DNA from: Chalara sp. BL73
Lineage: Eukaryota > Ascomycota > Leotiomycetes > Helotiales
Assembly: GCA_918026815.1 (NCBI GenBank)
Contig: CAKJVC010000016.1
Span: 110,141-174,140 of the forward strand
DNA length: 64,000 nucleotides
Direction of reading: 5' to 3'
Below are positions 660 through 43,306 of the stretch, piece after piece. The translations under genes and the position numbers were made by a program. Position 1 is the first letter of the stretch, and every line of letters starts with the position of its first letter. The notes beneath the pieces are model-generated. The model did not search any database. It was not told where the DNA came from and saw only the letters and a list, made by a program, of their open reading frames with translations.

Positions 660-1824
660 TCAGAGCTTTGGCTTTGCGGGAATGCGCTCCTCTTTCAATC
701 TGACTACGCCCTGTATCTGTAGTTAGTGCGACACGTGTGAAATTATGCAAGGCTAGCCTACCTCTTGAAAGCAAGTAGCTATCAAAGTTCCATCCTTTGT
801 AAAAATATGCTGGGTGACAACACCCCTGCCATCACCACTCCAAGGACTCGACATCTCTGCGAACATCCACTCATCTGCTCTAAACTTTCTGGGTTCGTGG
901 AAGTAGATGCTATGATCCAAACTGACCATCATGCCAACCTCGGGCCTTTTCAAAGCGTTCTCCAAATCATCCCCGTATCCTTCTTGTGTTTTTAATAACT
1001 TCATATATTTTTCGCGTAGCGCAATCTCGTCATCCCCAGTCTCAATGGCTTTTGATTTGGCATTTGTTGGTGCCCCAAATCGCCACAGGTCGTGAATGCG
1101 TGACACCGTACCAATAAAGTAAGAGTCGGACATGTATGCGAGCGCAGAGAGGTGGGCTTCGTGCCCGCCCTCCGGACTGATCCTCCCTCGGGCTCTGATC
1201 CATTGTCTCGTCTTTTTGGCATGTGGCGACTTACTGTCCTTATTCAACATTTCAACCCGCTGGCTCACGAACGGACTGCCACCATTAAACCTCTTCTCCA
1301 ACGGGTCTTGTTCCCTGTCCTCTGCTGGCACTACTATGTTTGTCGGTAATGGCACAGCGTGGCTGACAGTACTTGATCCTCCAGAGTTCTCCCGTACGAA
1401 GGACATCGTGGTTGTAAATATGCACTTCCCACGCTGGCGTGCCTGCACTGTGCGTGTAGCATATGATTTTCCTTCTCGGACATGCTCGACATAATACATA
1501 ACAGGTATTTCGGAGTCGCCTGCGAGAACGAAGTAGCAATGCATGCTATGAACTGTGAAGTTTGAGGGTACGGTACGTTGTGCTGCGGAAAGACATTGAG
1601 CTATGACAGCACCGCCATAAATACCACGAGCTCCAGGCGGGTGCCAGAGCGGGCGTGTATTCGTGAAGATATCCTAATTCTATATTAGATGATTGCTTCA
1701 GAACGAGCAACACGTCGCATACCGGAGCGATTGCACTTAATTCTGTGAGCTCTAGGACATTTTCTATCGCCGATTTTGAGGGATCAATGGGAGGCGGCCG
1801 AACAAGTGTGGGATGGTCAGCCAT
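660..1824 (-). CDS. Acyl-CoA thioesterase II (TesB/ACOT8 type), probably peroxisomal
   Basis: Hydrolyses acyl-CoA to free fatty acid and CoA, by family in peroxisomes. Three exons are predicted: 1824-1723, 1673-762 and 710-660, giving 354 residues. The introns are 49 bp (1674-1722) and 51 bp (711-761), both GT-AG and phase 0. Residues 35-78 carry the first hotdog core, with the motifs RPLWHPPGARGIYGGAVIAQ and HSMHCYFVLAGD. The second hotdog holds the family's expected Asp-Ser/Thr-Gln catalytic set: D217 in AYMSD, S309 in the MSSPW segment, and Q337 in the FQE motif. The small last exon supplies the expected ending VVRLKEERIPAKPKL, whose final PKL resembles a PTS1 peroxisomal signal. Without that exon the frame stops early. 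An in-frame ATG at 1905 could extend the N-terminus by 27 residues, but the shorter start matches the family better. Residues 125-190 look like a lineage-specific insertion. Confidence 0.87.
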
Positions 1825-3315: not shown

Positions 3316-4191
3316 TCAATTAGCGACTACAAGAAACTCTTGCAAACCTTCAGAACTCTCTAGTCCTTGACTCAAATTCCCGAGTTTCCAAGAAATTTCA
3401 TCGTCGTCGTCGTCATCGTCATCGTCATCTTCATCATCTTCTTCTTGCTGTTGATGATTGCCAAAGAACCTACCCCCCCTAACCTTCTCTACCGTCGGTC
3501 CCAAGCCTAATGCCTCTCCACCCCACCTACTCTTACAAACCTTCATATACTCTACACCCCAGATCTCTACTCCGACACTCCGAGACTCACTCCCGGTTCC
3601 GTTTCCTACCATCCTGCCAGCCCCAACTCCAACCCCAAGATCAATGGGCAACGCTCCCGCGATAAGGCCCAGAGGCACACTTGCGTCGGCTCCGAGCTCT
3701 ACAGTCCTCTCACTGTCCCGTCTAATGGCTGCATCCGTCGCAATCACAAGCCCAACAATAAAATATGCCTGTGGCTTCCTCAAGCTACGCGCCACCCTGT
3801 TCGTCATCAATTGCACCAGTTCATCCTTTACTCCTGGTTGCTCTAGAGTTCTCGCAAAAACAGCGGATGGGTTCACAAGCCTTAGTTTTTGGAGCTTGGG
3901 CGAGATGATAGTGTAAGATTCATTTGAACCACGAGATGAAGAGATAGAGAACACCGGCTGCAGGTCGACGTTAAATGAGATTGAGGAGGAGATGCTGAAG
4001 GAAAATATCCCCGGTGCTTCAGTCGTGGTGAGCGTTGAGTCTGGTGTTATGACATCGGCGAGCAAAGATGAGTCGCCAGGGACGGTTGCAGAGCTTAATG
4101 GGGAGAGGGGTGTACTAGTTATCAGGCCCAGGAGATTTTTTGAGGCTGGGATACGGTGTGGCAGTAGTAAGAAAGTTTTTACCTCTGACAT
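3316..4191 (-). CDS. Gasdermin-like pore-forming protein with polyacidic C-terminal linker
   Basis: A single-exon frame of 291 residues. Residues 60-245 show the strand pattern of a gasdermin N-terminal domain. A beta-rich stretch (60-100) is followed by SPKLQKLRLVNPSAVFARTL (98-116) and then LRKPQAYFIVGLVIATDA (137-154). The last segment resembles the strand that reads 'xLYVVTEVxxT' in animal gasdermins and has similar forms in fungal members. A second strand pair ends near EIWGVEYMKV (209-218). Residues 250-265 form an almost pure Asp/Glu run, followed by a 26-residue tail. Fungal gasdermins such as HET-Q1 and RCD-1 are about this size and are held inactive by a short C-terminal segment that a protease removes; here the tail after the acidic run is the natural candidate. 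The gene is divergent from a CHAT-protease NLR, 519 bp away. The family call rests on pattern resemblance and context, without a search. The alternative is an orphan secreted or beta-sandwich protein. Confidence 0.55.
   Translation of the reverse strand: MSEVKTFLLLPHRIPASKNLLGLITSTPLSPLSSATVPGDSSLLADVITPDSTLTTTEAPGIFSFSISSSISFNVDLQPVFSISSSRGSNESYTIISPKLQKLRLVNPSAVFARTLEQPGVKDELVQLMTNRVARSLRKPQAYFIVGLVIATDAAIRRDSERTVELGADASVPLGLIAGALPIDLGVGVGAGRMVGNGTGSESRSVGVEIWGVEYMKVCKSRWGGEALGLGPTVEKVRGGRFFGNHQQQEEDDEDDDDDDDDDDEISWKLGNLSQGLESSEGLQEFLVVAN
3403..3450. repeat. Imperfect trinucleotide repeat encoding the acidic tract
   Basis: A tgc-free run of tcg/tca/tct-type triplets on the + strand, read on the - strand as GAT/GAC/GAA/GAG codons. 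It encodes the 16-residue Asp/Glu tract of the gasdermin-like protein, so its length could vary by slippage. Confidence 0.7.
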
Positions 4192-4710
4192 TGTGAAGCT
4201 TTGTGTTGGTGTTGTTGAGCGGAAACTTTGGAATATTGCTGTTTTACTGTCACGTTTACAGCTTGGCGCTCGTGCATTGTTTCATTGATTGTCCCGAAAT
4301 CAGCCACATCTTTGTGAACTATTGCTTTTTTTCAGCTCTACATCCATGCGATCGCGTCCTGCTTTTGGTGGCGTCCAATGAAAATCAGCTTCACCTAGCA
4401 CCCGATCTTCTTTTGGGCAAATCTAGGCGTTGTCATGTACTATTCGTAACACACAACTACCTGTGGTTCCAGCTCCGTGCAACCAAATTTTGTTAAATTT
4501 TTTTTTTTTGGATATTGGGCTGGAATAAATACACGGTATAAAGCGACTTGGGTAGGTTCCAGGTTAAACCTAATCTTTGAAGTTCACCTTCTGGGACAGC
4601 TCGAAATCCACTCTCTTTCTCTCAATTGAATTAGTGTTCTGAGTATTTCCTTTTTTTCTTTTTTTTTTCTCTTTTTTTTCGTAATTCTTGTTTGAGTTGA
4701 GTATTGGCAA
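4192..4710. promoter_or_regulatory. Shared divergent promoter of the gasdermin-like gene and the CHAT-NLR
   Basis: The 519 bp between the two start codons must hold both promoters. On the + strand a TATAAA lies at 4537-4542, about 170 bp before the NLR start. A long pyrimidine tract (about 4636-4688, mostly T with some C) lies just before the NLR ATG, which is common in fungal promoters. The head-to-head arrangement would allow joint expression. Confidence 0.5.
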
Positions 4711-7700
4711 ATGTCTATCCTCTGTCTCCACATCCGGGAGCTGGAGCCTGCGCCAGGCGAGACCGAAGGATTTGAAATCGAATTATCTAGCGGAGATATA
4801 ACAGATATTATTTCGTTCATAAATCCTTTTGACGATGTAACTGAAAAAGAACTCACCTGGTTCCTTGAAGGATATCCGAAGTCTCCGTTTTCCGTTTCCC
4901 GAGCAGAAAAAATCGCCAGAAGACTAGACAGCTATGCAAGCCAAATCGCGCAGCAGCTGGTAGACAGTAAAGTTGGTCAACAACTATGCAAAGCAGATAG
5001 CGCGACGAACGTTTTAGAGTTATGTATAGAGCCTTTCGTGGATGGTAGCGTGAAGGCGTTGAGCAGTTTTCACCAGGTCCACTGGGAGGCACTTGAAAAC
5101 CGCGATATTTGGGGGATCCCCGGGCTTCCCTTTAGTGCAATTCAGGTCGTGCGACAAGTTCGTAGCAGCGCATGTCGGGTAATATGTCCAGCTCCCATAG
5201 CAGCATTGCATAACGGCAAGATTCGTCTCCTGTTCGTTTGTGCAAGACAATCGCTGGATGAGTCGGTCGATATCTCTTCCCGACTGATCATGCAACCTGT
5301 ATTCGAAGCCATCGAGAAATGTAAAGCCAACGGAAAGGTCGAAAGTGCTGAAGTATTGCGTCCAGCTACGTGGGAGTCGTTACAGCTTAAATTAAGAAGC
5401 AAACCTAGAGGGTGGTTCTCCGAAGTACATTTTGATTGCCATGGAGAGGTGATAGATGGAACAGCTTCTCTTCTTCTAGATTCTTCCTCGAAAAAAGGAA
5501 ATGAGAAAGTAGCAGCCTCTTTGATAGCCGGTGCTTTGATTGACTCGGGTGTCTCGTTGGCCAACTTGAATGCCTGCTCAACCGCTATGGCAGCAGCAAG
5601 GAATCTCGATTCGAATTTAGCCATCACGTTCGCGAAGGCAGGGGTTCCAATCACGATTGCAATGTCATATGATGTCCTTGATTCTGCTTCTTGTAATTTT
5701 GAGAAAGAATTCTATCGTTCTTGGTTGTCGGTTTCTGGTGACCAGCCCGTCAAGAAGTCTGTTCTGCATCGATTGAAGGGGCGATTTCGGTCCGTCGAGC
5801 AGATTCCATACGAGTCTTTGTCTGATTCAGTATGTAGAGCTGCCAGAGAAGGTCGTGCAGCACTTAGAAACGAAGGAGATAGGCTTGGTATGGGCGGGTG
5901 GCAAGTTCGTGTACGAGACGACATTGTCCCGGTCGTCTACATGTCGAAGTTCGAAGAGTATGACATTTCGGAAATTTTGCCGAGTGCCAAGGTTGAACCA
6001 AGAAGCGCAGAGCCACTGGAAGACAATCGGTGGGCGAATGATCTTTTGGAGGCGATGAAAGAGGCTTTCAAAAGTCCTTCACCTGACTCCTCGTCCACGT
6101 CTACGGCGAAGATCCTAAGACCAGATTCGAAGCAGCCTTCCAAGGACCAATTATTCTATTCATCACTTTTGCCGAAAGGCTTCCGTTTCGGATCAATCGA
6201 TCCCCCAATTGAGGGTAGAGATTCTGCTATCAGTCAACTTGAACAACTGATGGAGCAACCAAACAAAAATTTCTGCTTTATACAAGAAAGAGCTGGGAGT
6301 GGCAAAAGTTTGTTTGTGCGGCATATCTGTGACTGGTGGAGATCGACGGGTTTTATCCAAGATATATTCTACATTGACTGTAGGAAAGTTGCCATGCCAG
6401 AAGGCGCCCATGAAGGCTTGCCTTGCACTGCAGCGAAGCCGGACTTCATCGGTCAAGCTCTACTCTTCGTTTTCAAAGCTTTATGGCCAAACAAATTATC
6501 CCAGCCTTGGTACCGTAGTAAAAAGTCATTGACTGCGGAGCAGAAAGTCGAGTTGAAAGACGAATTGCGTGCGGGTCGCTACCTCATTGTGTTTGATAAC
6601 GCAGACTTCCCTTTGTGCATGAAGGAAAATAAGATTACTCCTACCGTGGTTATGACTGCAGGATCTACACTCATGTGTAGAGATTCATTGATTGCATCCT
6701 CTATGGCTATGTATGCACTTGGCGATTTCATTGGCCAGATCTCCAAAGGGAAGAGCAAGATTATGGTAACAAGCCGCTATCGAACTTGGTTTACAGATAC
6801 ATTCCCAGACCAAGAGCCACTCTGGTTTCATCTTCCACGCCTCTCATTATCAACGGCCTTGAAAATTGGGGAACGAAAATTGCATTTAATGAAAGCTGAC
6901 AAAAGGAGGTACGAATATTCTGGGGCAAAAGCAGATCTCTCTGCTCTCATAGACCTTCTTCAATTCAATCCACTGGCCATAGAGGTTTGCTACGGAGCAA
7001 TGGTAAAAGAAGCCCTATCTCCGCCAGATGCTTATCGGAAAACGTGCATTTCAGGATTCGTAATGGATGAGGAAGATTCTTCACTAGCTTTTAGTGGCGG
7101 TGGCAGATTCATTTCGGAACTGCAGAAGTTAGCGAGTTTGGACTGGAATGGAGGTGCTGACGAGAGCAGACGCCCTTTCTCAATGTTTTGGGTGTCGGGC
7201 TGTCTTGGGTATTTACCTGCAACAAATGAATGTAGCTTCTGGTATCAGTTGATCCTTTTACTCTACCAAAAGTGGAACGGCACTTTGACACCATTTGAAC
7301 TGGCTCTCCAGATGGACGAGAGCGAGATATGCAGGATGATGAGCGCACAATTGACCACACAAAATCAATATGATGAACTGGTAGAAGCTCTCAATCTTAG
7401 AAAGCATGTCAGCGACCTTTGTAAAACTATGGAAGAGGCTGGAGTTATCCAAGTCGAGAGGCCAGATCAGGAGCCAAGCTTTGCTAATGTTACGGAAGCT
7501 CTAGAGAGTTCCGACTCAAATCAGTGTTATCAGATACACCCATTGTTTACACTCATTTCGCGCATTTCAAATTGGGGCTATGATGACGAGGAGCATTATA
7601 ACAATATGTGCTCCTTGAGGCGGTGCGTGTCTGCAGTATATAACTTATCAAGATGCACAGCTTTGTTCCTGAAAAAATTTATCGGCGGGCTTAGAGCATC

Positions 7701-9932
7701 AGAGATGTGGGAATCCGGTTTGCTACAAGTACCAACATCTGAAAAGCGATCCGAGGTTATGGGGGTTCTACAAAGAACATTTAAAGATATTCCGTCGCTA
7801 GTTGATGCACTCTCCTGGATGTCAACAGATCAGCCCATGGTGGAAGCGAATGCTAAATTCTGGCAGTTAATGCCACAACTTTTCGGCGGAGCCATCCATC
7901 TAGTTGCTGCTGTCTTTGAAATAAGGAAAGAGGCATTGTATCCGGCTAGTGATGCTCTGAATGGTTTATATCAAAAGTGCCTGCCGTTCACACATGAAAC
8001 TCCGACGCTTCTTGACGCTCCTAGCTTCGTATACATAGTAGTGTTTCAGGCCGCCGCCTTGGCCCGTATGTCATCTCATCGAAAGGGCTTGCCCGATCCT
8101 CTCATTTATCTCAGTGAGGCAAGAGATTTGATCGAGAGGCACCGTGATCGGCTCCGAGAAGGAGTCAAGCTCGAAACAGCTATCGAGAGTATTTTGAGGA
8201 ATATGTATGCTTTTGAAGCGAACTTGCATTTCCTGAGAGGTGATCGAGAGAAGTCGCATGCCATGCAACTGGCTGCTCTCTCTGCACCGCCATCAACACA
8301 CCTCCCCAAGGACGTCCGCCGGTCATTTCTCATCCCAACCCTGTTTCAGTGGCTTACCCAATGCAAAGTGCGCAATAACAGCTTCCCGACGGTTCATCAA
8401 CTCACCCAGATGAAAAAGTCGATCCTTGATATCCTTATAGAATATGATATGTGGGACGGAAGCGAGGCCATGACGTTTAATGAAGACGTGCAGTTCCTGC
8501 TCCGTAACTCGGTCTACGAGCTCACAAAGTCCGCAACATACCTTCCTGTTCCACCTCGCAACAAACAATTCGACTCCAGGTTTCTGCAAGTATATGGCGG
8601 AGCGGGCGGCGAAACATTGGTCACGGGCATGGGTACGGTTGAGCTAACAAAAGACATTAGCGAAGAGACGGAAGCCTCGCTGTTAAAGACATTCCTTATG
8701 CAATCTGACGTCGCAGGGAGCAGCGGTCTAGCCTCAGTGCATATGCGAACCGCGCAGATGCTCATAGGCAGTCGCAAATGGATTGAGGCTTTGCGTCACC
8801 TGAAGGCCTACGCATCGTTGCCCATGCCACAAGAAGACCTACAGAGTCCACCTTTGAGATCTCAGAATTCTCTTCTCGCCTGTCTATGTTTCTCGAAACT
8901 AGAATGCTGGAAAGAGGCACGGCAGCATGCATTCAAGGCAGTTGAAGAAGCCGTAGATGCCCGCGACGACGGTCAATCGCTTACACAAGCTCTTGGAGCC
9001 CTTGCCGGTGTCGAGGCCGGAAGGGTTGGGGCTTACACACTCACTGCAAAATTATTAATTGTGTTAGCAGCCGCAGCCGTATATGCACCCAATCGACCAG
9101 GCCATGATAGTGGAGGACCTTCGGAGTTTCAAAAGAAATACAGGAATGGTTGGCTTTTTAAATTGATGACGACACTAGGAAACCTCATCCCCAAAAATGG
9201 TGGCTCACATCATCCCGTGTTCTTGCCGCTTATGACTGCACAGCGTGCTGAAGAGCGAGAAGAGAAGAGCGAAGTGTCTGTTCCTGGATTCGAGATTTTT
9301 GAAGCTAGTATGGATGCAACGGTACTTATGCTAAGTCTGAGCGTCAATCGGAAAAAGGATGAAGCCAGAGGAGAAAGGATGTTCTGGGTGGACAAGAATT
9401 TGGAAAACGAGCTTTATGCCGAGGTGGAACAAGTCGCCTTTGGCTGCGAGGAACTAGTTTTGAGTCATTTTACTGAGTTCGATTGGGTAGGCATGGTAGG
9501 CATATCTGCAACCGATTTAGGCTCGATCATTAGTTTATTGCGCAATAGTATCAAGAGTGTCGTCTCAATATCCAAGGGCCATGTGTTCTGCTCAAAGACG
9601 AGGATAAACTGCAATTGGACGCTCTTAAAAATATGCTCAACCTCTCTGATGAACCGCTCTCATTTGATGTTCCAGAGAACATTATAAAGAAGGCCAAGGA
9701 AAGGAGCGCGAGGCGAGGGGCCGACTCAGACTCAGATAGCGACTCAGGAAGCGATAGCCCGGACACAGACTTTGATAAGCCAGTGAACGGTTACTTAAAG
9801 TGGAAGATATTTTGCGATGAATTCACTGATCATTTAGTTGCAAAAGAGTTGCGGAAGGCTCCTATATCAAAGGAAGTTTGGGGGGAAGTTGAGAAGATGT
9901 TTGAAAATATGGAAAGAGACCGGCATAATTGA
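4711..9932 (+). CDS. CHAT protease-STAND NTPase-helical repeat receptor (fungal NLR)
   Basis: Two exons, 4711-9486 and 9549-9932, give 1719 residues; the 62 bp phase-0 GT-AG intron (9487-9548) links the long frame to an acidic C-terminal exon. Residues about 100-410 form a CHAT domain, a caspase-clan cysteine protease: the dyad is visible as H244 in HFDCHG and C289 in LNACSTA. Residues about 490-800 form a P-loop NTPase: Walker A ERAGSGKS (526-533), Walker B YLIVFDNAD (624-632, Asp629), and a sensor-like KIMVTSR (683-689). The rest is alpha-helical and TPR-like, without clear WD40 or ankyrin repeats. The C-terminus has a Ser-Asp repeat (DSDSDSDSGSDS). Domain order is effector-NTPase-repeats, as in fungal NLRs, so the repeats probably sense a trigger and the NTPase oligomerises to activate the protease. 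The divergent gasdermin-like gene is the obvious candidate substrate. The exon join is an inference; without it the protein ends at 1658 residues. Confidence 0.85.
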
Positions 9933-11347: not shown

Positions 11348-12352
11348 CTATTTTACTATGGTATTGCTTGTAGAAACGTCCAACCCATCAACCTCAATGC
11401 CAAACTCACTTACCCTTGTCTTCGTCTTCCCAGCTACCTCACTGATCAAAGCAGCAACAGCCACCAAGCCCGCACCGACAAAGATCCCCCACTGCCCAAC
11501 CTCATACATTTTCTCCTCTTCCAGTATCCCTTTCCCATAATTCCTCAAAAGAAACATCTCATTAATTACCAATGTCGGTACGAACATCAACGGCGTCAGA
11601 GACAAGACAACTTTCCTTAGCTGCACAAATGCATTTTGGACGGATGAGAAGATCGGAAGGCGACCAGTCTGCTCATGTTCAATGCTGGTGATTGGTGGAT
11701 TGGTGTATACAAGTCTGGCTCGTTGAATTTGGCGTGGCTGGGAGGAGTTGATCGCAAAGAGACAGCTAATGGCCCCAAATACCAATGGCATCATAACCAG
11801 CCCAGCGACCCTCTCAACAATCAAGCCATAGAAATACCCAAAGACCGGCTCCGAAGTCGCGATATGCGCGTCTCCCGGATCTCTCAATTTCAGCTTCGGC
11901 GGATCATTGTCTGCCCAACAGCGCTCCGAATGCCAGTCTTCTCCTCCGCTCAGCTTGACGGCTTCCTTTGAACGGAGCAGCAGGACGTATATGCATATCG
12001 TAGCGGCGATGACCAGGGCGCCCCATATCCGGATAATCGGCCTTGCATTGCTACGCAGATTTTTCGTCCATTGAAGGAGAGGCAGTGCCAGGACTGAGGC
12101 AGTTGAGAGAACAGCCCACAGACCGAATATATCGAGGTTGATCACGTGGTTTGTTGGAAGCGCGATGATGAGAATAGCGTATATTGCCGCGGTGGAGGAG
12201 TATGTGAGCGAGAATGCGAATGCGCCTTTCACGAGCGGTGGAGGCGTGGGGTATAGGACGGAGATTATGATGGAGAGGTAGTATAAGTAGCGATGGAACG
12301 GAAGATAGGTGGGTGACAAAGGGTATACGCAGATATGGGTGGGTACGGACAT
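11348..12352 (-). CDS. Predicted multi-pass membrane protein, function unknown
   Basis: A single-exon frame of 334 residues. Five to seven hydrophobic segments are visible: about residues 24-36, 43-64, 72-90, 107-126, 172-200, 244-262 and 285-305. A charged loop (about 127-165) contains two Cys that may face outside. The C-terminal 25 residues are hydrophilic and rich in Thr, Ser and Glu. I do not recognise the family. Neither transporter motifs nor catalytic residues stand out. It converges with the MYND gene, with 170 bp between their ends. Confidence 0.6.
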   Translation of the reverse strand: MSVPTHICVYPLSPTYLPFHRYLYYLSIIISVLYPTPPPLVKGAFAFSLTYSSTAAIYAILIIALPTNHVINLDIFGLWAVLSTASVLALPLLQWTKNLRSNARPIIRIWGALVIAATICIYVLLLRSKEAVKLSGGEDWHSERCWADNDPPKLKLRDPGDAHIATSEPVFGYFYGLIVERVAGLVMMPLVFGAISCLFAINSSQPRQIQRARLVYTNPPITSIEHEQTGRLPIFSSVQNAFVQLRKVVLSLTPLMFVPTLVINEMFLLRNYGKGILEEEKMYEVGQWGIFVGAGLVAVAALISEVAGKTKTRVSEFGIEVDGLDVSTSNTIVK

Positions 12353-24950: not shown

Positions 24951-27354
24951 TTATACCATAGCACCGATTCGAATCTCTCCAAATGGCTCATAACCATCAG
25001 CTTTACCACTAATATCCTGTTCAACCCAAATTTTTCTCTTGGTTGCCAAGCTCAAAACATGGTAAAATGCTTGACTCGCCACAATTCTCGAGTTGTTCGC
25101 TGGATTAAAAAGTTCTTCGAAAGTAACATAATTTGTTCGTTCATCAATACTCAATTCATCGGCTTCAGCTTCTACGCCAAACTTCTCTGTGATCGAGTTG
25201 CGTACGTAGTCAAGGAAGTTGCCTGACTCGCGATCCAATGCCTCTCGAACCCATTGCGAGCTAGCGGCAGTCTGAGTATCAACTTGTGCAGCAGGGCCGT
25301 AAATTTCGAACTCTGCGGTGGCAGCTTGGGAGGACGAAATATCATTGTGGTCTTCATCCTTCGCGCGGAGGATAGCGTCATCGTCGTTGTCAGAGCGTCC
25401 ATACATCACTGGTTCATCTTCCATGTGGGATTGTCCAAGATCGCTGAGAAGTGGTGCGCCGCGGCCCAGAAGTGGAGATGCAGATGTAGGACGGCGACTT
25501 GCCACAGAAGGGAGACGGCCTAGAACGCTTGACGACGCGCCTAGTTGGTGGGAGTGGACTGATTGAGAGACGTTCCAGGGCATCATGACCGATGATGGAT
25601 AGTCTTGAAGTCCTGGTGGGGCATCTCTTCCTACTTCTGTTCCTATGCTGTCTTCCATAATCATGACTCCTTCATCTTCATAGTTGCCACGGCCCATCTC
25701 ATCCTCAGCTTCTGGCTCTTGCTCTCCATCCTGGCGAGAGCGCTTAGGAGATGAACCTCGTTTCTCATCTTCACTCTCTCGAGCTCGCTTTGTTGCCTTC
25801 TTGCCCTTAGCTGGTAGAGGTCCACCAGTGATTTTAGCAAATAGTGATTCGCCTGCGAACATTTCTAGAGGAGAGGTTATATTCGAGGTTCCTATACCAC
25901 GTCCAACAGCACTAAGACCAGCGCCATACACAAATGAAAACGCCGTCTTCTTAGATTGAGAACTCGCTATCTTTTCCTCTTTTTCTCGCTTTGCCTTGTC
26001 CATATTTTCTAGGTATCCATGTTGCCAGCCAAGTAGATCACGGTTGAGTAGTTCGGTGGTACTATCTGCTGTCAAGATCTTTCGAGACTTTGGCTTGTGT
26101 CGCTTTTGTGGTGCTTCAGCAGACAAGGATGATGGTTCTTCGGAATAGACCTGATCTTCAGAATCGTTTTGTTGGCGTGGCTGATCATAACCACCAAGGC
26201 CACCGGCCATCATTGGAAAAGGCTCGCCATCGGGTAACAGTTGTCCATCATCATACAGCATGTCAAAATCTCCCTCAGCATCAAGAATAGGCAGAACATG
26301 ACCAATCACAGCATCCTCATGTTCTTTCCGAACTCGTGCCTTAGCTGCAGAATCACTTCCGATACGACCTGGGGGGGGAACAGTTCCTGGGGGAAAAACA
26401 TCCTGTTCATCAGCAACAACATCTTGCATGTTTCCGTCAGCGTCGAATCCGAATATATCATCTTTGAACAATTCGGCTTCATCATCAAACATATTAGGCC
26501 CGCCTGTGCTGAACCCCTTGTGCGCTGATGATCCTCCGAATATGTCATTGTCTGGCAATTGGTAGGGCCTGCCTTTGCCATCGGATGAAGGAAGCTCAAT
26601 GCCAATCACGGAATGTGCATGAGAGGAATCTACCGAACCACTGCGTCCACGGACTGATAGCATGGACTGAGAAGAATGCTGTGAGTCGCCAGCTTGTAGG
26701 CTTTCGAAGTCGAATTCAAGGGCTGGGAGCGCTACATTAGGGTCGAAGGCCGGATCATCCATGAGCATAAGGTGGCTAGGACTACGATGGTTAGTGTTCG
26801 AATGTTACACGGCCATAAAATATACCGAGATTTTCCAGCATTGATATCGAGGTCATCGCTCTTTGCAAGTTTCAGGAGGGCACGCATTGCATGCTGAGCA
26901 GCTTGTGCATCTGAAAGAACATAACCACATTGCTGATCGTAAACCCGAGACACGCCATACCTTGAAGTGCATCAGCTTTGTTCTTTGGATCTGAAAACGT
27001 ATAGGCTACTTACATGAGATTACTCTGAAGTCTCAATGCCATGGGAGCCTCTGGTTCAATGATCGTTTCGCATGCCCTCTGAACATCGACATCCAAGATA
27101 GCCTTTCGGGTTACCTTTCGTGTGGTTGACTTTTGCCCAAGGGTAGCCACGAGCCTGGAAGAACACATCAGTCAGTGTACCGAGCTATGCTGCATATTGC
27201 CGAACAAAGCATCTGTTTGCCACACTTAAGATGGTACAACTTACCATATTGTCGCAACACCATATTTTCGGCTCGTCAAGACTTGCCAGCATTAGTCATA
27301 ATGAATAGAAGCAGGATGTTTTATGAATACTAACTCTCATGACTGTAGAACATC
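24951..27354 (-). CDS. rec8: Meiotic cohesin subunit Rec8 (kleisin)
   Basis: Five exons are predicted: 27354-27336, 27281-27245, 27154-27014, 26960-26826 and 26781-24951, giving 720 residues. The introns are 54, 90, 53 and 44 bp, all GT-AG, and the phases join correctly. The N-terminus is a Rad21/Rec8 domain beginning MFYSHEILTSRKYGVATIW, with PMALRLQSNLMYGVSRVY further on; the form fits fungal Rec8 better than mitotic Rad21. The middle is long, acidic and disordered, with Ser-rich stretches suitable for kinase and separase control. The last 60 residues (TFEELFNPANNSRIVASQAF to the end) form the winged-helix domain that binds the SMC1 head. The kleisin closes the SMC ring in meiosis. The first exon is only 19 bp, so automated gene models may miss it. 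Confidence 0.88.
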
Positions 27355-28109: not shown

Positions 28110-30977
28110 TTAGGAAGTGGGGTCTGGAAGAGTGTGCGGAGTGTTTTGTTGTCGAACTGGTGTTGAAAGGGCGATGCTAGTTTGAGATGCACTTGGCCGG
28201 ACCAGTGGCTTATGAGATGTGGAGCTCCATGTCGAGTTGTGACCCAGTGCGCTACCTGCTCGGGATGGACCGACCGGCGAATCAAATCGACCATTGTCTT
28301 CCGCAAAAGTCTGGAAGTCTCGAGAACTCCAACTGGCACGATGAAGCCGAGCACCATAAGGCACATTTGAATAGCGACTAGCCATGCTATTAGATCGGCT
28401 GGCTCGTCCAACTTGAGGAGGCGCTTCTATGTCATACATGTCTGGCACATTATCGACATCCTCATCTTCGATCTTGGGGGCCCTGTAGACACTATTGACG
28501 GTGAAGTAAGGCTCCTTGGGCTCCTCTGGCAAAGGTGGAGGTGTTGGAGGCAGGTCGGTTGCCTTCTTCTCGATGGTCTTGAAGTACTTCATCTTGATAT
28601 TCTCTAAGTGACGTGGCTTGAACTCTTCGCGATTTCGCATGAGTGACATGTAGCTGGATATAACGCTGAGCACAATGAGTATCAAGAGGCCAATTACTAG
28701 AAACCCCTGAATGACGATGATGACTACACCAACTACCGTAGCTGGAATTCTCGGCAGGTTGATCTGGGGAAGGAATGCTATAGAAAGACCTGCGGTTGCG
28801 ACCTTGCTAAATCCCAGTAAATATACAGCAAGCGAAGTGTTCCTAGCACTCTCAAAGGGATTGATGCAGATGATGGTGACGAAGGCGATTATCTCCCACA
28901 CGAACAGGCCGATGACTTGTGCAGTAGGGCTGGCACGTGCGCCACCAACAAAACATGCACGAACGAATTGGTAGACAATCCAGAAGGCGAAGAACCACCA
29001 ACGTGTGCGTCGATATCGGGCAGACAACCAACCAAATCGCTTGGTATAATCTGCATCTTCGTGAACACTCTGTCGTTCGGCATCTGCAGATACAAATTGT
29101 ATACGAGGAAACGGTATGGATCCTGAGGTTGCGGGCTTGTCGTCATTCTCTCCCAAAGAACTCTCACGAGTGGTTCCGACATAGGGAATGAACTTCCATA
29201 TTTTCTTGCGGTGGAAGTAGACCCGATCAGGTTGCGATTCGTACTTTCCGAATTTTGCTCTGTAGAAGCATGCATAGAATGCTATGCCAAGAGCTCCAGC
29301 GAAAAAGATGGCGAAAACAATGACCGCGATTGCAATCGGTCCGGCCTTTCCTCCATTCGAAAATTGGAATAGTGTTAGTGTCATCATCATGAAGAATGCG
29401 ATAAGCATTCCCCGGAGGACGATGGTCCCAAGGAAGCCTAGCCAATGACTTCTGAAAAACGTCAGCCGATCAGCTTTAATCCACTTGATCGAGCTAAGCA
29501 GCTCTAGAGTATATTTGAATGCAATGATAGCCCCGATAAGGATGGCAATCAAAATGAGGAACCAAAGGAAGCCAACCAAGAAAGCATCAGCAACAGGAAT
29601 TCCGAGGTCGACAAGTTCGCCAGCGAAGCCTGACCAATTGCCTGGCAAAGGCAACCCAGGCGATACAGGTACGCCAGCCCATTCGTAGAGCTTTGGGGTC
29701 GTCCCAATTTGATTCTCGGCTCGATTGTATATCCTACGCGCAAATTCTTCGCCCCGTCTAAGCATCTCTGGAGAGCTATATTCCCAAAGGTGCGGTAACG
29801 ATCTTCCGTAAATCTGCTGCTGCAGACCTCCATTGGTATTTAAGAAGGTAGACCCAGCACCGCCAACCTGACTTGAGTTCCCATTAACGCCTGTGAATTT
29901 ATTCACAGAGTTGATGATAGACGAGGTATAGATTTGCCCTGCAGACCAGCCGAAATTGCTCCAGAATGCTGCACAGACGCTGGGCCAGTTGATAGATAGA
30001 GCGCCAGAGAAGAATATAGACTGGAATACTTCAAATATAACCAGTATTGATAGGGAGTGGGCATAGTGTACCCGGATGTTTGGGACGCCAACTCCATAGA
30101 TGGCGGTGAAGAAGGACGATAGAAGAGCTACCACAGTAAAGACGGCCAGCGCGGAGCCGATAGCTTTCGGGTGAGAAAAAGTCGCCCCGTTTGTCATCAC
30201 GGCTTTGAAACAGCCAATTTGTGTTTGTGTAGCATTCGAGAAGATTCGCAAGGTTGTTGAGCCTTCGAAATCAGGAATAGATAATGCAATGTCAGTAATT
30301 GACGAGACATCGCTCTTAGAAACAGGAATGACTGCTCCACCAGAGATTGGAACATCCGCCATCATAGGACATAAGCTGCATCGGTTAGCAGGGAGCTTCA
30401 ATCGGCCTGTTGTTTTAAAGTCTGGCAATCGTAGAGACCCATGTAAAGTATGCCGTGGAAGATAAGACATTGAAAAACATACCTGTCAAAGTTGGCCTCA
30501 CAGGGATTAAAGGTATGGTCATATCGATCTTCTCCATCTAGGAACATCAGTAAACCTCTATCTACCACGTTATGCGTGACCTACAAGCTTCGACCGACAT
30601 GACAACTAGAAGGCACGGGTTAGCCACGTCCAAGTAAGGCCTGCAAAAGGTTTTATAAACATACCCATGAGGCTCTCGTTTCGTAAATTCGTCGTGCCAC
30701 GCATATGAAATAATATCGTAGAATTATCCTTGTAGTAAGCCGCATCAAATGCCGTCAAATTGACCAAGCTCTGCCCGCCCATGCAATCTCCAAAATCTCC
30801 CGTGTATAATGCTGGATATCGTGCCGCCAGCAGGGCAATCGCATTCCCATCCGAGTCATATCCTTTCACCGTCTCCGCCGTCGTCTCCGCCCGTGTAGCC
30901 TGCATCAAGGTCCCGAGCAGAGCCAGCGAGGAAAGCAGGGTGGTAGTCCACGAACCGGAAGACAAAGGAAAAGCCAT
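28110..30977 (-). CDS. TRP-like/Flc-family membrane protein (ML-like domain plus TRP channel region)
   Basis: Three exons are predicted: 30977-30665, 30561-30483 and 30375-28110, giving 885 residues. The second intron (30376-30482, phase 2) is clear. The first (30562-30664) has alternative acceptors within about 20 bp, so the short middle exon is uncertain by a few residues. A signal peptide (residues 1-28, MAFPLSSGSWTTTLLSSLAL and on) leads into a luminal ML-like domain with conserved Cys (CMGGQSLVNLTAFDAAYYKD; TFNPCEANF; SLCPMMADVPISGG). Then come about nine membrane segments, for example GSALAVFTVVALLSSFF, VGFLWFLILIAILIGAII and VVGVVIIVIQGFLVIGLLIL. A Pro/Ser-rich cytoplasmic tail follows. 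Related yeast Flc proteins act in FAD import to the ER, calcium balance and wall maintenance; fission yeast Pkd2 is a related channel. Which activity applies here cannot be told. Confidence 0.82.
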
Positions 30978-33734: not shown

Positions 33735-36274
33735 TCATTCCATATCTAAACGCCTTCTTTTCCACATCCTAGATTCTACTTGGTCGTCTTCCCAATACTC
33801 ATCGCCCACAAACCAACAGAACTTGCGCCGTCTTTCCAAATGCAAAGTCGTCTGTACCTCTCTGCCCAAAACCCGGTCTAGCCTGTCAGCAAACGCCTGT
33901 TCCTCAGGATAAAGACCCTGCGTGGTATAACACTTCCGCAGCGCCTGCTTCACAAAAGCCGCGCTCTCGGTTCCTGGACTATTTCCCTTCGTGTAAAACA
34001 CATACGCCTCCTCGTACCTGGCCGTGGCTTCCTCCCAGCATCCCAAGTGCTCTAGTGCTACCGCAAACTTCTCGATACCAAATGGCAGCTCGAAGTAACT
34101 CATGCCCATCACTTCAACCTGTACCGGCAAATAAAAATGTGAGAGCGAAACTGTTTGCTCGTACCGGCCCGCACTACATAGGCTTAAGGCGTAGTAGCTC
34201 AGATTGGCCAGCGTGTCCGCGTTCTCGTATCCCGCAGCGCTCCAGCTCCTCACCACAATCTCTCTTAGGATCCTTAGGCTCTCCTCGTGCTCTCCAAGGC
34301 CGCTAAGAAGTTCCGCATAACAGATAAACCGGCCGCTATAAATGGATTCCTTGGAAACCTTGGAAAGCTCGATCTGTAGCGCGGTACCTGAAAGCTCCTT
34401 GCCCGAGCGTAATAGGTCTTTCCCTACCGGTGATACCCTGCTCTTAGAAGAGAGTGTTGTGGCTAGGATATGCATATATTTAATGGTGAGAGGGTGTTTG
34501 AATCCATATTTGTTAAGCGTGATCTGGACTTTCTGCCGGTCATAAGTTTCAGCTTCGTCATATCTTTCAAGGCATCTGTTCAACATCCCCATCAAGGACA
34601 TGGAATTTAGAGCAATGTCACTCTCTGGTCCGAAGGCTCTCACGATTTGGGGGTGGATAACCGCATGTATATCGAGGGCCTCCAATATGCGGCTTTTTTG
34701 CACCTTGACATTCATGATGGCGAAATAGATGGTAGCTAAGTCCTGATAAGCAATCCCTCCCATCTTCTGCTTCGCAGTCAGAACGCGGGAATACAGATCC
34801 TCAGCCTCATCCGACCTCCCTTTCTCGTAGTACAGATCGGCGAGCTGTTGGACTTTGGATAGAACGCCAATATTATGTGAAGGTAGGGTTTTCTCTAATC
34901 TCTCTAGCTGTTTCTCGCACCATTTGATGCGCTGATTGAGCGGGGCTTTGGGGCGTTCAGCAGCAGTCACTGAGAATCATGAGTTAACAAGTGTATTAAT
35001 ACCTAGGCTCGAGAAGCTAGAAGCAAAAGGCAACAGAGAAAGAGAATTTCCTCTTCATCATCGAAGCTACTCACCAAAGCTCATTGTTTTGCCGCTAAAC
35101 TCGACTGGCCAAGGACTTAATAGCGGTGCTAACGGCCACATGTCGCTAACTACCTTGACCAATCCACCACGGCCAAATCTAGTCATCTCATTGTATGAGC
35201 TGTGAGCTCTGTGGGTTCGAGTAACACGAATCTCTTCCTCGGCCTTAGAGGTTTTGGAAGTTTTGTATTCTCTATTCTCTATAGGGCGTTTCGAGATTCC
35301 GGTTAGCTCCTCCATAGAGAGATATTTTCTGGGTGGCCCTGGATCTAAGGTCACCGTTTCGTCAAGCGATAAGAGAGGCATTTCATCATCTATCTTCAGT
35401 GCATTGATCAAAGTTGTGAGCTTTGGCGAATCCATAATTTTGGCCGAATCCCAGAGAGTCTTGGGCCGGAGATCCGATGTAGGCCTAGAGCCGGATGTGG
35501 TTGAGAAAGATGTGTTTCCATCTAGGCTCTGCTCATGTTCTAGGACAGGTATTTCCATTGTTACATCACCAGGAGGGGATATACTGCCCGAGGATGCTTC
35601 CGATAAAGGCGTATGTATGGCAGACGACGAAGCTTTTACATTCGGCATAATAGAAGGCATATTTCTTCCATGTTTTGGGATGTTAGGCGTAAGTGAGCTT
35701 GAGTTGCTTTCCCTTCCTTCTGGCGCAGTTGGGCTATCACCTCTTTCTGCAATGCTTAGAGGGGATATACCTGTAGGACCTGTATCTAGTTGGGTTGGGG
35801 GGCTCGCTTGTAGCTTTCGACTATAGTTCTTCCTAAAACCCCATTTCTCCACTCGTCGAGCAAACTGCTTCTTTCTAGGTTTTGATTAGCACCCGCCTCT
35901 TAAATTCGTGTTAGTTCAAGCATGATCACCTACGTGGGCTCGAAATTATGTTGCTGAAGAAGGATTCTGGCCACTTCCTTGAAGCTCATATCGTTCTCAT
36001 ACCATAGTGAACGTATCGTTGGCTTGAGTACCTCCCATTCCTCAGGGGTTAGTTGCCGTTTGGGATCTGATGAGGATGGCCACTGGGGCGCATTCGTGGG
36101 GAGATGCATCGTGAAAGCATGACCTGTATTGATATTCATCTGAGTTCCAAACGTGGTCTCGATCGTCTGGGGTAGAGTCGATGGCGGTTGGCTCCCCGGA
36201 AAAGGAAACTGGGGCTCGCGGTGTGGATGAGAATAGGGAACATCGGTGGAAGCGGAGGCAGCATTCATTACCAT
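33735..36274 (-). CDS. Clr5-domain protein with C-terminal TPR region
   Basis: Three exons are predicted: 36274-35934, 35874-35075 and 34969-33735, giving 791 residues. The introns are 59 and 105 bp, with GT-AG sites and phases that join. The first exon junction rebuilds a Clr5 domain of about 50 residues: LTPEEWEVLKPTIRSLWYEN, then SFKEVARILLQQHNFEPT joined to KKQFARRVEKWGFRKNYSRK. Fungal Clr5 domains are small helical, probably DNA- or chromatin-binding modules, named from a fission yeast silencing factor. Residues about 130-370 are disordered and Ser/Pro-rich. The last exon (about 380-791) is helical with tetratricopeptide-like repeats, for example VQQLADLYYEKGRSDEAEDL and SLMGMLNRCLERYDEAETYD. 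Many fungi have large families pairing Clr5 with helical repeats; their function is mostly unknown. A nuclear regulatory role is inferred. Confidence 0.8.
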
Positions 36275-39874: not shown

Positions 39875-42800
39875 ATGGAGCAGGATGAGGAGAACAAGGT
39901 CGCGGCAACTAAAGATACAGCAGCTGGAGCAACGCTTCTGCCCGCACCCATCGCGAATGTTGTAAGCTTGGTTACTCGCAGCTCATCCCTCTATCTGCGA
40001 CTCGGCACATTTATTGGTGGGCTTGCGTTGGACGGAGCCCGAGTTACTACCTTGACAGGTTTGGAACTGAGCAGAGCTGTGATCGAAGCTATACTCTACC
40101 GAGCTGGCAAAGATGTATCTGATAGAAGCATCGGAGAGGTTGGCAGAGCAGAGGCAGAAGGAATGCTGGAAAGAAGTATCGCAACCCTTCACGCGACGAT
40201 CACCAATATATCTTTCGCTGCCAGCACAGGATTCTATCTCTCTACTGTGGCTCTAGAGAGTGCCGGTGACTTAAGCCAACAATTGCTGGGCACATTGGAT
40301 AGTATACTGGGAAGCACGGATTCGTCTCGGGCAATCGCAAGTATCATTACGTTGATCCGGCGAGAATTCCAGAATCCGGCGACGGGACAGGAGGGAGAGA
40401 AAGTCAGCGTGGCAGATTTGCTTATGGGAATTTGTGGCTTAGCATTGCTGCAAAGATGGAGCAGAAAATTGACGGACGCAGAAAATAAAGACCAGAAATG
40501 CGAGGAGATCGTTTGGGATGTCGTGGTCTTGGACAATGGTAGAAGAGCGGATGTCATAGACAAAGAATCGAAGAACGAAGAGAGGCTCCTGACCCCGGGG
40601 AAATTGAGCAAATCCATAATATTCAGAACAGCAAATGGAAGTGAGGTCCTAGAAACACTTGAGAGGGAAGAAGATGGAGAAGACCTAGAAGACGATATGC
40701 CTGAAATTAGTCTCAAGCAGAGAATCATGGAATCTTTGCCTGCTGACGCCTCAGTATCAATAACTACATCCATTACAACTACAAAAACCATCACCGTTGA
40801 AATAACAGGAGCCCACCCACCTCAGTTGACGCCTCCTCCTGGCGTCGAACTCGTCGAAGAAAATGCTCACCATACTGGAGGTTTCGCTCTCGGCGACGGA
40901 GGTTTGGCCAACAATCAGGAAAGTGGGTTACCAGCTCCTCACTATAGAGTGGTGTACCGAACCATGCGGAATAAACTACGCGCCACCAGTATTGACGGCC
41001 AAAACATAGTTCAAAAAGCTGACGGATTTGTTGACCCTATTGAAGTTGAAGACGAACCTCAAACTCCTCCTAATCCTACCTTGGCGAGCGAGCCATCTAC
41101 ATCAAATCCTAGCGATAGCATTTATCACAGAGGTGGCGATCCGACTACAACTACTATCACTGCTGATGCCGTGTGTTCTGCTGAGGAGCCCAACCATAAC
41201 GCCTCCATAATATCTCCTACAGAACAAGCCGCGAATCAAAAACGCTCAAGAAAGCCTTTGAGTGCTGCCTCGTCCGTTAGTGGATCTGAAGCAAAGCTTC
41301 CGCAAAAGGCCTCGAGCGGTAAGGTACCAGTTAGCAAGAAATTGAAATCTGAGAGACCGATGCTAGACAAACCGGCCGAGAAGAAAGGATCGTTCAGGAA
41401 AGCGCTCAGAAAGGGGTCCGGCAATACACTTTCAAACATTTGGAATAAGGACGCTCCTATATCAGAGCTGTCAAAGGGCAAACCCGCCCGTCGACCCTCA
41501 TGGGGAGCACCCACTCCGCCTCCAAAATCACACCTGCCAATACCTCCCAGAAACTCCAGCGTTGTGCCTCTCCGGGATATCCCTCTCCCTCCGCAACGTG
41601 GTAATCCAAACTACTTCTCCTCTCGAGATTTAGGCTCCCCTTCAGAGAATGCTCCTCGAAGCCCTTCTCGAGCTAGTTATTTCTCGATCCATGAACAAAG
41701 GCGCGCTTCTATTGTATCACAAACAGACACATATTCCATCCACTCTGCAGATGGCCGTCCCTCATCGCCTACCGCATATAGGGCACACCTGAGAGCTCAA
41801 AGCAGCCTGATGAGGAGTGTGAGCGACAAAAATATTGCAAACCCTACCCCTTCACCCAAGAGGCACCGGAGAAGTAAATCTTTCGTACCAAGCATATACA
41901 CTCTAAACACAAATAATTCTGCTACATCCCTCATACTTGCAACACAGCGTCCACGTAGTGCGTTTGAGGACACACATGCTCTTGAGGCCCTGATGCGAAC
42001 TGGTCATGTAGATGGCCTATTTCCGCGATATCATCTTGTGAGGAATATTACTAGATTTATTCGATTTGCATCTGCAAGCTATGGCTCATCTTTCCTAAGA
42101 GTTATGGGAATTGCGACATTCCCAGATACTGGAGAGGTAAAGGAATTTGATACCAACCATCATCACGAACATCACTCGTTTTCGAGTCATACTCAGCTGC
42201 CTGCTGATACCATCCTACTTTCATCCTTTGTTGATCCACAAGGAGGAACCGATGCAACTGGAAATACCGGAACCGGTGTGCCGATGGTACACTTTGTTTC
42301 TCTGGACCATGATTCCAAGGCTGTAATATTAACTTGTCGAGGAACACTTGGATTTGAGGATGTGTTGACAGATCTGACGTGTGAGTATGATGAACTCCAG
42401 TATCGCGGGAAGGCGTATATTGTTCACAAAGGAATTCACGCGTCTGCAAGGCGGCTTTTGTCGTCCCGTGTATTGGTAACAATCAAAGCTGCCCTGGAGG
42501 AGTTCCCAGATTATGGACTTGTGTTGTGCGGGCACTCACTTGGCGGCGCGGTTACTGCCCTTCTTGCAGTTATGATCTCAGAACCATTGACCAGTGGAAC
42601 GTCTTTCATCACATCATCTCAGCCTTATAAGCCGGCCCAATTATTACTTCCATCGCCTGGCAATCCCGGAATAGCACCAGCTGAAATGTCTCATCTACCG
42701 CCAGGACGACCAATTCACGTCTATGCGTACGGACCACCATCAACAATCTCACCATCACTACGGCTAGCCACTCGTGGCCTTATCACGACTATTGTACACA

Positions 42801-43306
42801 ACCAAGATCTTGTTCCGTATCTTTCCTTAGGTGTGCTTCACGATCTTCAAGCCGTAGCTTTGGCATTTAAAACGGACGACTCCGGCGCGAAAGGTGAAGT
42901 TCGGAGGAGAGTTTGGGAAGGCCTACAAGGAACATTCAAAGACAAGTGGTATCAGAATGGCGGTGGAACAACGCAGAGAGATGAGGATGATGAATGGGCC
43001 TATTCGGCGTTGAAAACATTGCGAGCAAGTATGTTGAGCGTCAAACTTGTTCCACCTGGTGAGGTCTTTATCGTCGAGTCCATGCCGGTTCTTAGACGGG
43101 ATGCATTCTCGAAAGATGGCGATGCTGGAGCAAATACAGGCGGAGGACTGGGTAGACCAGCTACGAGAAGCATGCTGAGGTATGTGAGAGATGTAGAGAA
43201 ACGATTCGGTGAAGTCAGGTTCGGAGGAAGCATGTTGCTAGATCATAGTCCTGGCCGTTACGAAGCAAGTCTAGGTGCGCTTAAGAAAGGTGTTCTGGAC
43301 TCATGA
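39875..43306 (+). CDS. Diacylglycerol lipase-like enzyme (lipase class 3, alpha/beta hydrolase)
   Basis: A single-exon frame of 1143 residues. The N-terminal third has helical, partly hydrophobic segments (VVSLVTRSSSLYLRLGTFIG; IANISFAAS-like stretches). Residues about 330-690 are disordered and Ser/Pro-rich. The class 3 lipase core lies in residues about 720-1000: AVILTCRGTLGFEDVLTDLT contains the oxyanion region, and LVLCGHSLGGAVTALL carries the nucleophile Ser888. Asp978 in VHNQDLVPYLS fits the catalytic Asp. His1124 in LLDHSPGRYE, near the C-terminus, fits the catalytic His seen in sn-1 diacylglycerol lipases. The long linker and the C-terminal His position both match the DAGL type rather than secreted lipases. 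No signal peptide is seen. It likely acts at internal membranes on diacylglycerol or related lipids. Confidence 0.85.
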   Translation: MEQDEENKVAATKDTAAGATLLPAPIANVVSLVTRSSSLYLRLGTFIGGLALDGARVTTLTGLELSRAVIEAILYRAGKDVSDRSIGEVGRAEAEGMLERSIATLHATITNISFAASTGFYLSTVALESAGDLSQQLLGTLDSILGSTDSSRAIASIITLIRREFQNPATGQEGEKVSVADLLMGICGLALLQRWSRKLTDAENKDQKCEEIVWDVVVLDNGRRADVIDKESKNEERLLTPGKLSKSIIFRTANGSEVLETLEREEDGEDLEDDMPEISLKQRIMESLPADASVSITTSITTTKTITVEITGAHPPQLTPPPGVELVEENAHHTGGFALGDGGLANNQESGLPAPHYRVVYRTMRNKLRATSIDGQNIVQKADGFVDPIEVEDEPQTPPNPTLASEPSTSNPSDSIYHRGGDPTTTTITADAVCSAEEPNHNASIISPTEQAANQKRSRKPLSAASSVSGSEAKLPQKASSGKVPVSKKLKSERPMLDKPAEKKGSFRKALRKGSGNTLSNIWNKDAPISELSKGKPARRPSWGAPTPPPKSHLPIPPRNSSVVPLRDIPLPPQRGNPNYFSSRDLGSPSENAPRSPSRASYFSIHEQRRASIVSQTDTYSIHSADGRPSSPTAYRAHLRAQSSLMRSVSDKNIANPTPSPKRHRRSKSFVPSIYTLNTNNSATSLILATQRPRSAFEDTHALEALMRTGHVDGLFPRYHLVRNITRFIRFASASYGSSFLRVMGIATFPDTGEVKEFDTNHHHEHHSFSSHTQLPADTILLSSFVDPQGGTDATGNTGTGVPMVHFVSLDHDSKAVILTCRGTLGFEDVLTDLTCEYDELQYRGKAYIVHKGIHASARRLLSSRVLVTIKAALEEFPDYGLVLCGHSLGGAVTALLAVMISEPLTSGTSFITSSQPYKPAQLLLPSPGNPGIAPAEMSHLPPGRPIHVYAYGPPSTISPSLRLATRGLITTIVHNQDLVPYLSLGVLHDLQAVALAFKTDDSGAKGEVRRRVWEGLQGTFKDKWYQNGGGTTQRDEDDEWAYSALKTLRASMLSVKLVPPGEVFIVESMPVLRRDAFSKDGDAGANTGGGLGRPATRSMLRYVRDVEKRFGEVRFGGSMLLDHSPGRYEASLGALKKGVLDS

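Follow-up and report, generated by a model that had tools for sequence, protein, structure and literature searches.

The window analysed here, 64,000 nucleotides of the Chalara sp. BL73 genome (contig C13, GenBank CAKJVC010000016.1, positions 110141-174140; 58.7 Mb in 199 contigs), carries two head-to-head genes, one encoding a 291-residue protein of the gasdermin family and the other a large receptor with an N-terminal CHAT protease domain and a nucleoside triphosphatase (NTPase). The pair most likely forms a module of two genes for regulated cell death, of the gasdermin/protease type known from fungi, in which, by analogy, the receptor would sense a cue and cut off the gasdermin tail, and the gasdermin core would then form lethal pores. 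A first-pass annotation of this DNA had proposed such a module, and the proposal has gained support from the assignment of the small protein to the gasdermins by profile, from a CHAT-NTPase with an intact catalytic dyad and from a second head-to-head pair in the same genome. The window pair is real, well formed, probably functional and of a documented kind.

By analogy with characterised gasdermin systems, we infer cleavage, a cut site, pore formation, cell death and a biological role as follows. The receptor (N-terminal CHAT, STAND/NACHT-type NTPase, long C-terminal region) would be held inactive until a cue is sensed by its NTPase/C-terminal part, upon which the NTPase would oligomerise and the receptor assemble. 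The active CHAT domain could then cut the gasdermin near its core/tail junction, at residues about 239-265. Once rid of the acidic 5-kDa tail, the basic core may attach to acidic lipids in the membrane and oligomerise there into lytic pores. The module may serve in defence or heterokaryon incompatibility.

The gene layout is as follows; P numbers denote related proteins found by sequence searches.

3316..4191, minus strand: gasdermin-family gene, 291 amino acids, single exon (open frame; relatives P0001-P0003; profile match to RCD-1-1)
4192..4710, no strand: divergent intergenic stretch of 519 bp, presumed to be a shared promoter region (frame coordinates)
4711..9486, plus strand: exon 1 of the CHAT-NTPase receptor gene, 1592 codons (open frame; relatives P0004-P0006)
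9487..9548, plus strand: predicted GT..AG intron of 62 nt (exon 2 frame supported by P0005)
9549..9932, plus strand: exon 2 of the receptor gene, stop included (P0005 alignment)

The frame coordinates agree with the head-to-head arrangement first described, the two start codons being separated by 519 bp, which puts the gasdermin and protease genes well inside 10 kb of one another. The minus-strand frame of 291 amino acids is open over all of 3316-4191, and its start, M...KT.LLLPHRIPA, is common to the window protein and P0001-P0003 (283-291 amino acids). The receptor frame runs uninterrupted over 4711-9687 of the plus strand; the end at 9932 given in the first-pass annotation holds only when the short intron is removed, which yields a protein of 1719 amino acids, and does not hold for the uninterrupted frame. 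P0005 matches the exon 2 frame from the exon's first residue (40% identity over 127 amino acids, E 6e-26). It also has extra residues just ahead of the exon 2 start, and the precise splice sites are a prediction.

A fungal gasdermin with an acidic tail

Relatives of the small protein were searched among about 5.8 billion proteins. A single-sequence search yielded P0001-P0003, with 54, 49 and 44% identity to the window gasdermin, and an alignment-based search, in which the best 7999 candidates were scored, added at least three more, P0008-P0010. Profiles of the family were then compared with the PDB (177,635 distinct sequences, matches listed to E≤10). Both the 4-sequence profile (E 4.5e-4, profile positions 114-226) and the 7-sequence profile (E 3.2e-3) matched RCD-1-1 and nothing else. 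When the second gasdermin of the genome, described below, was added, the resulting 8-sequence profile likewise returned RCD-1-1 entries only, at E 2.3e-6 and, for a second RCD-1-1 construct, 6.2e-5. Through the profile match the family is homologous to the core of a characterised gasdermin from fungi, and on this profile evidence the 291-residue protein belongs with the fungal gasdermins. The gasdermin likeness noted at first pass is thus upheld, though the single-sequence PDB, Pfam and PADLOC searches were empty; the opposite verdict, that the protein is not a gasdermin, is suggested by those empty searches and was rejected, since the profiles match RCD-1-1.

The gasdermin gene can be divided into the following parts, all encoded on the minus strand.

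3460..4191, minus strand: core (residues 1-244; net charge +3), predicted to form the pore (charge computed; RCD-1-1 match)
3460..3477, minus strand: GGRFFG, residues 239-244, suggested cleavage region (alignment)
3397..3444, minus strand: acidic linker EEDDEDDDDDDDDDDE, residues 250-265, of variable length among relatives (alignment)
3319..3459, minus strand: tail at the C-terminus, predicted to be inhibitory (residues 245-291; 5.4 kDa; net charge -18; computed)

The short C-terminal tail seen in the first-pass annotation corresponds to residues 245-291 and is a feature of the whole family. A GGxFF motif followed by an acidic stretch occurs in all seven aligned proteins, the window protein included, and the tail is acidic in each of the seven. 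For the four proteins of full length (window, P0001-P0003), net charges range from +2 to +6 in the core and from -11 to -18 in the tail. The tail measures 38-47 residues and 4.2-5.4 kDa in the six relatives that have it in full. P0008 stops inside the linker, leaving 14 residues with a charge of -6, and P0009 and P0010 are without the N-terminal half and have tails of 38 residues with charges of -9 and -10.

The conserved tail and GGxFF junction provide a concrete cleavage prediction: a cut after F242 or F243 of the window protein would remove 49 or 48 residues. According to the relevant passage of PMC10989679, activation of HET-Q1 (278 amino acids) removes the 40 residues behind F238, a piece of about 5 kDa. 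We tentatively consider, as a rather doubtful refinement, that GGxFF at the core/tail junction could be the cut site itself, that a caspase-related CHAT protease would here cut after Phe and that the poly-Asp linker might act as an electrostatic latch holding the basic core off acidic membranes. If GGxFF were the CHAT cut site, like HET-Q1 F238, which is cut by the unrelated subtilisin HET-Q2, the gasdermin and not the protease class would set the cut site.

The CHAT-NTPase receptor

The receptor combines a CHAT domain with an NTPase, as the first-pass annotation had recognised; the sites below are all on the plus strand.

5308..5739, plus strand: CHAT domain per Pfam, residues 200-343 (E 1.6e-10)
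5440..5442, plus strand: His244 of the CHAT dyad (alignment)
5575..5577, plus strand: Cys289 of the CHAT dyad (alignment)
6289..6309, plus strand: P-loop (Walker A) RAGSGKS, residues 527-533 (NACHT match, alignment)
6583..6606, plus strand: Walker B-like LIVFDNAD, residues 625-632 (alignment)

The window receptor exceeds the Pfam cut-off for CHAT (41.4 bits against 24), and His244 and Cys289, the dyad named at first pass, are the only invariant columns across 11 aligned CHAT sequences. These comprise four members of the receptor family and seven of the genome's 14 other CHAT matches. Of the matches left out, six were weaker or partial, and the seventh, L006 (G000:C130:67855-68649), has a TGA stop inside its CHAT sequence, which may point to a read-through intron or to a decayed gene.

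Matches to NACHT at E≤1, the strongest at E 3.7e-7, occur in all four receptor-family members and support the P-loop NTPase of the first-pass annotation, even though the match in the window protein itself is sub-threshold. Residues 527 and 529-533 of the P-loop and VFDNAD (627-632) are invariant in all four, as are residues 753-755 and 757-758 of NPLAIE and HPLF (943-946). We take LIVFDNAD to be Walker B-like, and NPLAIE and HPLF presumably represent GLPL- and MHD-like motifs. Judged from these matches and motifs, the NTPase is real and NACHT-like. The repeat region that was also claimed did not materialise: no Pfam repeat was found in residues 964-1592 or in exon 2 at E≤10 (HMMER filters drop most matches above 0.1, and divergent repeats are possible), and none was listed for the four family members at E≤1. 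The receptor is best called NLR-like and not a strict NLR, because no known C-terminal repeats (WD40, ANK, tetratricopeptide (TPR) or LRR) were found in it.

The protein search with the receptor gave three close relatives (P0004-P0006, P0004 with 53% identity) and one weak match, P0007 (E 1e-4), which has TPR, NACHT and CHAT domains. Against the PDB, the receptor profile listed 14 sequences at E≤1, NACHT domains of NLRP3 and NLRP1, the best at a non-significant E of 0.11. The window CHAT protein also weakly matches PADLOC SAVED_CHAT (E 1.2e-5), and a scan of viral contigs gave no relatives of P0004.

The window pair is probably kept elsewhere. P0001, the gasdermin relative with 54% identity, and P0004 are each associated with a single contig, which in both cases comes from the same source and measures 12,607 bases; this suggests that one contig carries both genes.

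A second gasdermin/CHAT pair and the competing explanations

Pfam CHAT has at least 15 matches in the genome, located in the window and in 12 other neighbourhoods. Together with the window, flanks of at most about 10 kb to the left and right of these 12 were scanned (6 kb on one side for the one on contig C83, where the contig ends nearby), giving 2573 six-frame open reading frames (ORFs) of at least 50 amino acids. Besides the window protein, the 7-sequence gasdermin profile found one match among them, in the neighbourhood termed L014 (E 4.8e-6; next 1.3). In a control with 50 column-shuffled profiles on the same ORFs, the best E-value was 0.029 and the best for the L014 gasdermin ORF itself was 6.9.

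L014:5611-6471, contig C2 about 148,413-149,270, minus strand: second gasdermin, very divergent (profile match of the ORF L014:5614-6477)
L014:6960 onward, contig C2 from 149,759, plus strand: TPR-CHAT gene facing the second gasdermin, with TPR repeats followed by CHAT (domain match)

The L014 gasdermin is 19% identical to the window protein over the alignment, and pairwise BLASTP aligns 167 positions at 25% identity (E 1e-6). GGxFF was not seen in it in the alignment. It lies head-to-head with the TPR-CHAT gene at about 490 bp start-to-start (491 from the first ATG, 488 from a preceding GTG), and this direct head-to-head position within its stretch is not a product of the search. Whole-genome single-protein searches, an insensitive method, returned only the query itself for the L014 gasdermin and only the window gene for the window gasdermin or P0003.

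Several results weigh against a two-gene cell-death module, some of them touching the identity of its parts. The RCD-1-1 match covers only some 110 residues, all from the latter half of the core, its E-value was poorer with seven sequences than with four, and the value of 2.3e-6 is not independent because the second gasdermin had been added for scoring with the profile. The Pfam gasdermin family was unmatched in all seven relatives scanned and the PADLOC one in all three scanned of the seven, phmmer searches of the PDB gave weak unrelated matches and no gasdermin for the window protein and no gasdermin match for its L014 counterpart, and in the window receptor NACHT stays sub-threshold at 17.2 of 26.7 bits. 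The missing family-library matches, the partial coverage of the core and the modest E-values obtained before the second gasdermin was added would suit a different beta-rich fungal protein with a spurious match to RCD-1-1. We regard this as highly improbable, given that each of the three profiles picked out RCD-1-1 and nothing else from the PDB at E≤10, that the shuffled-profile control, run on the ORF set rather than the PDB, speaks against it, and that the gene has a CHAT partner in the genome. A real gasdermin could also work without cleavage in the manner of RCD-1, the CHAT receptor acting elsewhere or only regulating; no relative with a solved structure other than RCD-1-1 turned up, and RCD-1 is described as activated without cleavage in the part of PMC12881547 that deals with it. 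This, too, is unlikely, as the window gasdermin family has a conserved acidic tail, whereas RCD-1 is reported in the corresponding part of PMC11760362 to have no inhibitory C-terminal domain, and as a head-to-head CHAT partner recurs at the second locus.

The remaining objections concern the pairing. With gasdermin genes and CHAT genes both frequent in fungi, the divergent pair could be coincidental and its members have no joint function. At least 13 CHAT neighbourhoods exist in the genome and two have a recognisable gasdermin, that is, only one of the 12 outside the window and none of the remaining 11; gasdermins were likely missed there, since introns were not taken into account in the scan and the profile has a narrow reach. 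Moreover, pairing itself led to both finds, the first having been picked as a pair and the second near CHAT genes. The pairing of the L014 gasdermin is in part a product of the search because only the surroundings of CHAT genes were scanned, and unpaired divergent gasdermins elsewhere would escape, the whole-genome searches being too insensitive to link even the two known here. The shared origin proposed for P0001 and P0004 counts against coincidence, with the equal figure of 12,607 bases as its only basis. However, although the scanned flanks reach up to 10 kb in either direction, the ORF of the second gasdermin is the very one that directly faces the CHAT gene, the start-to-start spacing of the two pairs is almost equal (about 490 and 519 bp), and adjacency of gasdermin and protease genes is the rule in fungi according to passages of the reviews PMC12881547, PMC10197012 and PMC10989679. 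Coincidence is quite unlikely in our view, and a regulated-cell-death module remains by far the most plausible explanation of the pair.

An acyl-CoA thioesterase gene (window 753-1544, minus strand) is the neighbour beyond the gasdermin, and beyond the receptor gene lies a 334-amino-acid protein (11348-12352, minus strand), hydrophobic by eye and with no Pfam match over the cut-off. Matches to Rad21/Rec8-like proteins (24951-26768, minus strand), TRP-like channels (28110-30470, minus strand), class 3 lipases (39875-43306, plus strand) and sulfate permease/STAS (50322-52207, minus strand) represent an ordinary gene neighbourhood. At 33735-34970 (minus strand), TPR_12 repeats together with a nephrocystin-3 TPR match below threshold may belong to another fungal NLR or TPR gene; the next ORF upstream, 35067-35852, has no Pfam match. 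The GC fraction is 0.398 in window 48001-50000 and 0.51-0.52 in the flanking 2-kb stretches.

The main value of the pair lies in its predicted cut site and in the occurrence of two sensor layouts in one genome. With gasdermin/CHAT pairs of both the CHAT-NTPase and the TPR-CHAT type present, sensor specificity and cross-activation become testable. The CHAT-NTPase would be an all-in-one sensor, with protease and receptor in one protein; in mammals, an NLR works with a separate caspase. The family also adds a divergent gasdermin sub-family that Pfam (seven of seven scanned) and PADLOC (three of seven scanned) do not match.

Comparison with known gasdermin and CHAT systems

Bacterial gasdermin defence systems resemble the window pair in that a gasdermin is encoded with a protease, which in some of them is CHAT according to a passage of PMC10197012. 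Unlike these systems, the window gasdermin family is without a PADLOC match among the relatives scanned. A large CHAT-domain protein is also known from Aspergillus fumigatus, where hetB (1,327 residues) is tied to heterokaryon incompatibility; unlike the window pair, hetB has no gasdermin partner shown in the relevant part of PMC11138114, and the other hetB allele there is a short unrelated protein.

With RCD-1 of Neurospora crassa, the window gasdermin shares profile homology over about 110 core residues, and RCD-1 is described in PMC11760362 as binding acidic membranes and forming pores. Unlike the tailed window protein, RCD-1 has no inhibitory C-terminal domain in that description and is activated by heteroallelic pairing. 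The first-pass annotation had listed RCD-1 among the gasdermins activated by proteolytic removal of a C-terminal segment; this is contradicted by the account in PMC12881547, where the meeting of two allelic variants, and not proteolysis, activates it.

A closer parallel is HET-Q1/HET-Q2 of Podospora anserina, with the fungal gasdermin/Q2L-protease clusters (Clave et al. 2022), as far as reviews describe them. HET-Q1/HET-Q2 and the window pair each have a short gasdermin (278 amino acids in HET-Q1, 291 in the window) and a protease partner, and both gasdermins end in a tail of roughly 5 kDa, a likeness of position and size only. However, HET-Q2 is a subtilisin-like serine protease of 388 amino acids, whereas the window receptor is a CHAT cysteine protease and NTPase of 1719. 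Cleavage is reported for HET-Q1 and predicted for the window gasdermin.

The most similar systems are the fungal gasdermin/CHAT clusters outlined in reviews. In the passages concerned, about 80% of fungal gasdermin genes lie in clusters with protease genes. CHAT genes lie near 19% of fungal gasdermins (PMC10197012). A share of about 17% of the linked proteases is given as cysteine-type (PMC12881547) or as CHAT (PMC10989679). Dozens of gasdermin-linked NLR or NLR-like proteins are said to carry CHAT (PMC10197012), NLRs with an N-terminal CHAT adjoin gasdermin genes (PMC9815663), and in P. anserina a gasdermin is activated by its TPR-bearing CHAT (PMC12881547). Given that these reviews already describe gasdermin/CHAT clusters, CHAT-NLRs included, we ruled out that the window pair is a new kind of module. 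It has in common with the clusters, that of P. anserina among them, the two components and their adjacency, and its combination of CHAT with a STAND-type NTPase falls within a described subset; the comparison is by description only, as individual members are unnamed in the reviews' accounts. Thus, the window pair fits the published description of gasdermin/CHAT clusters and is probably a member of this documented kind.

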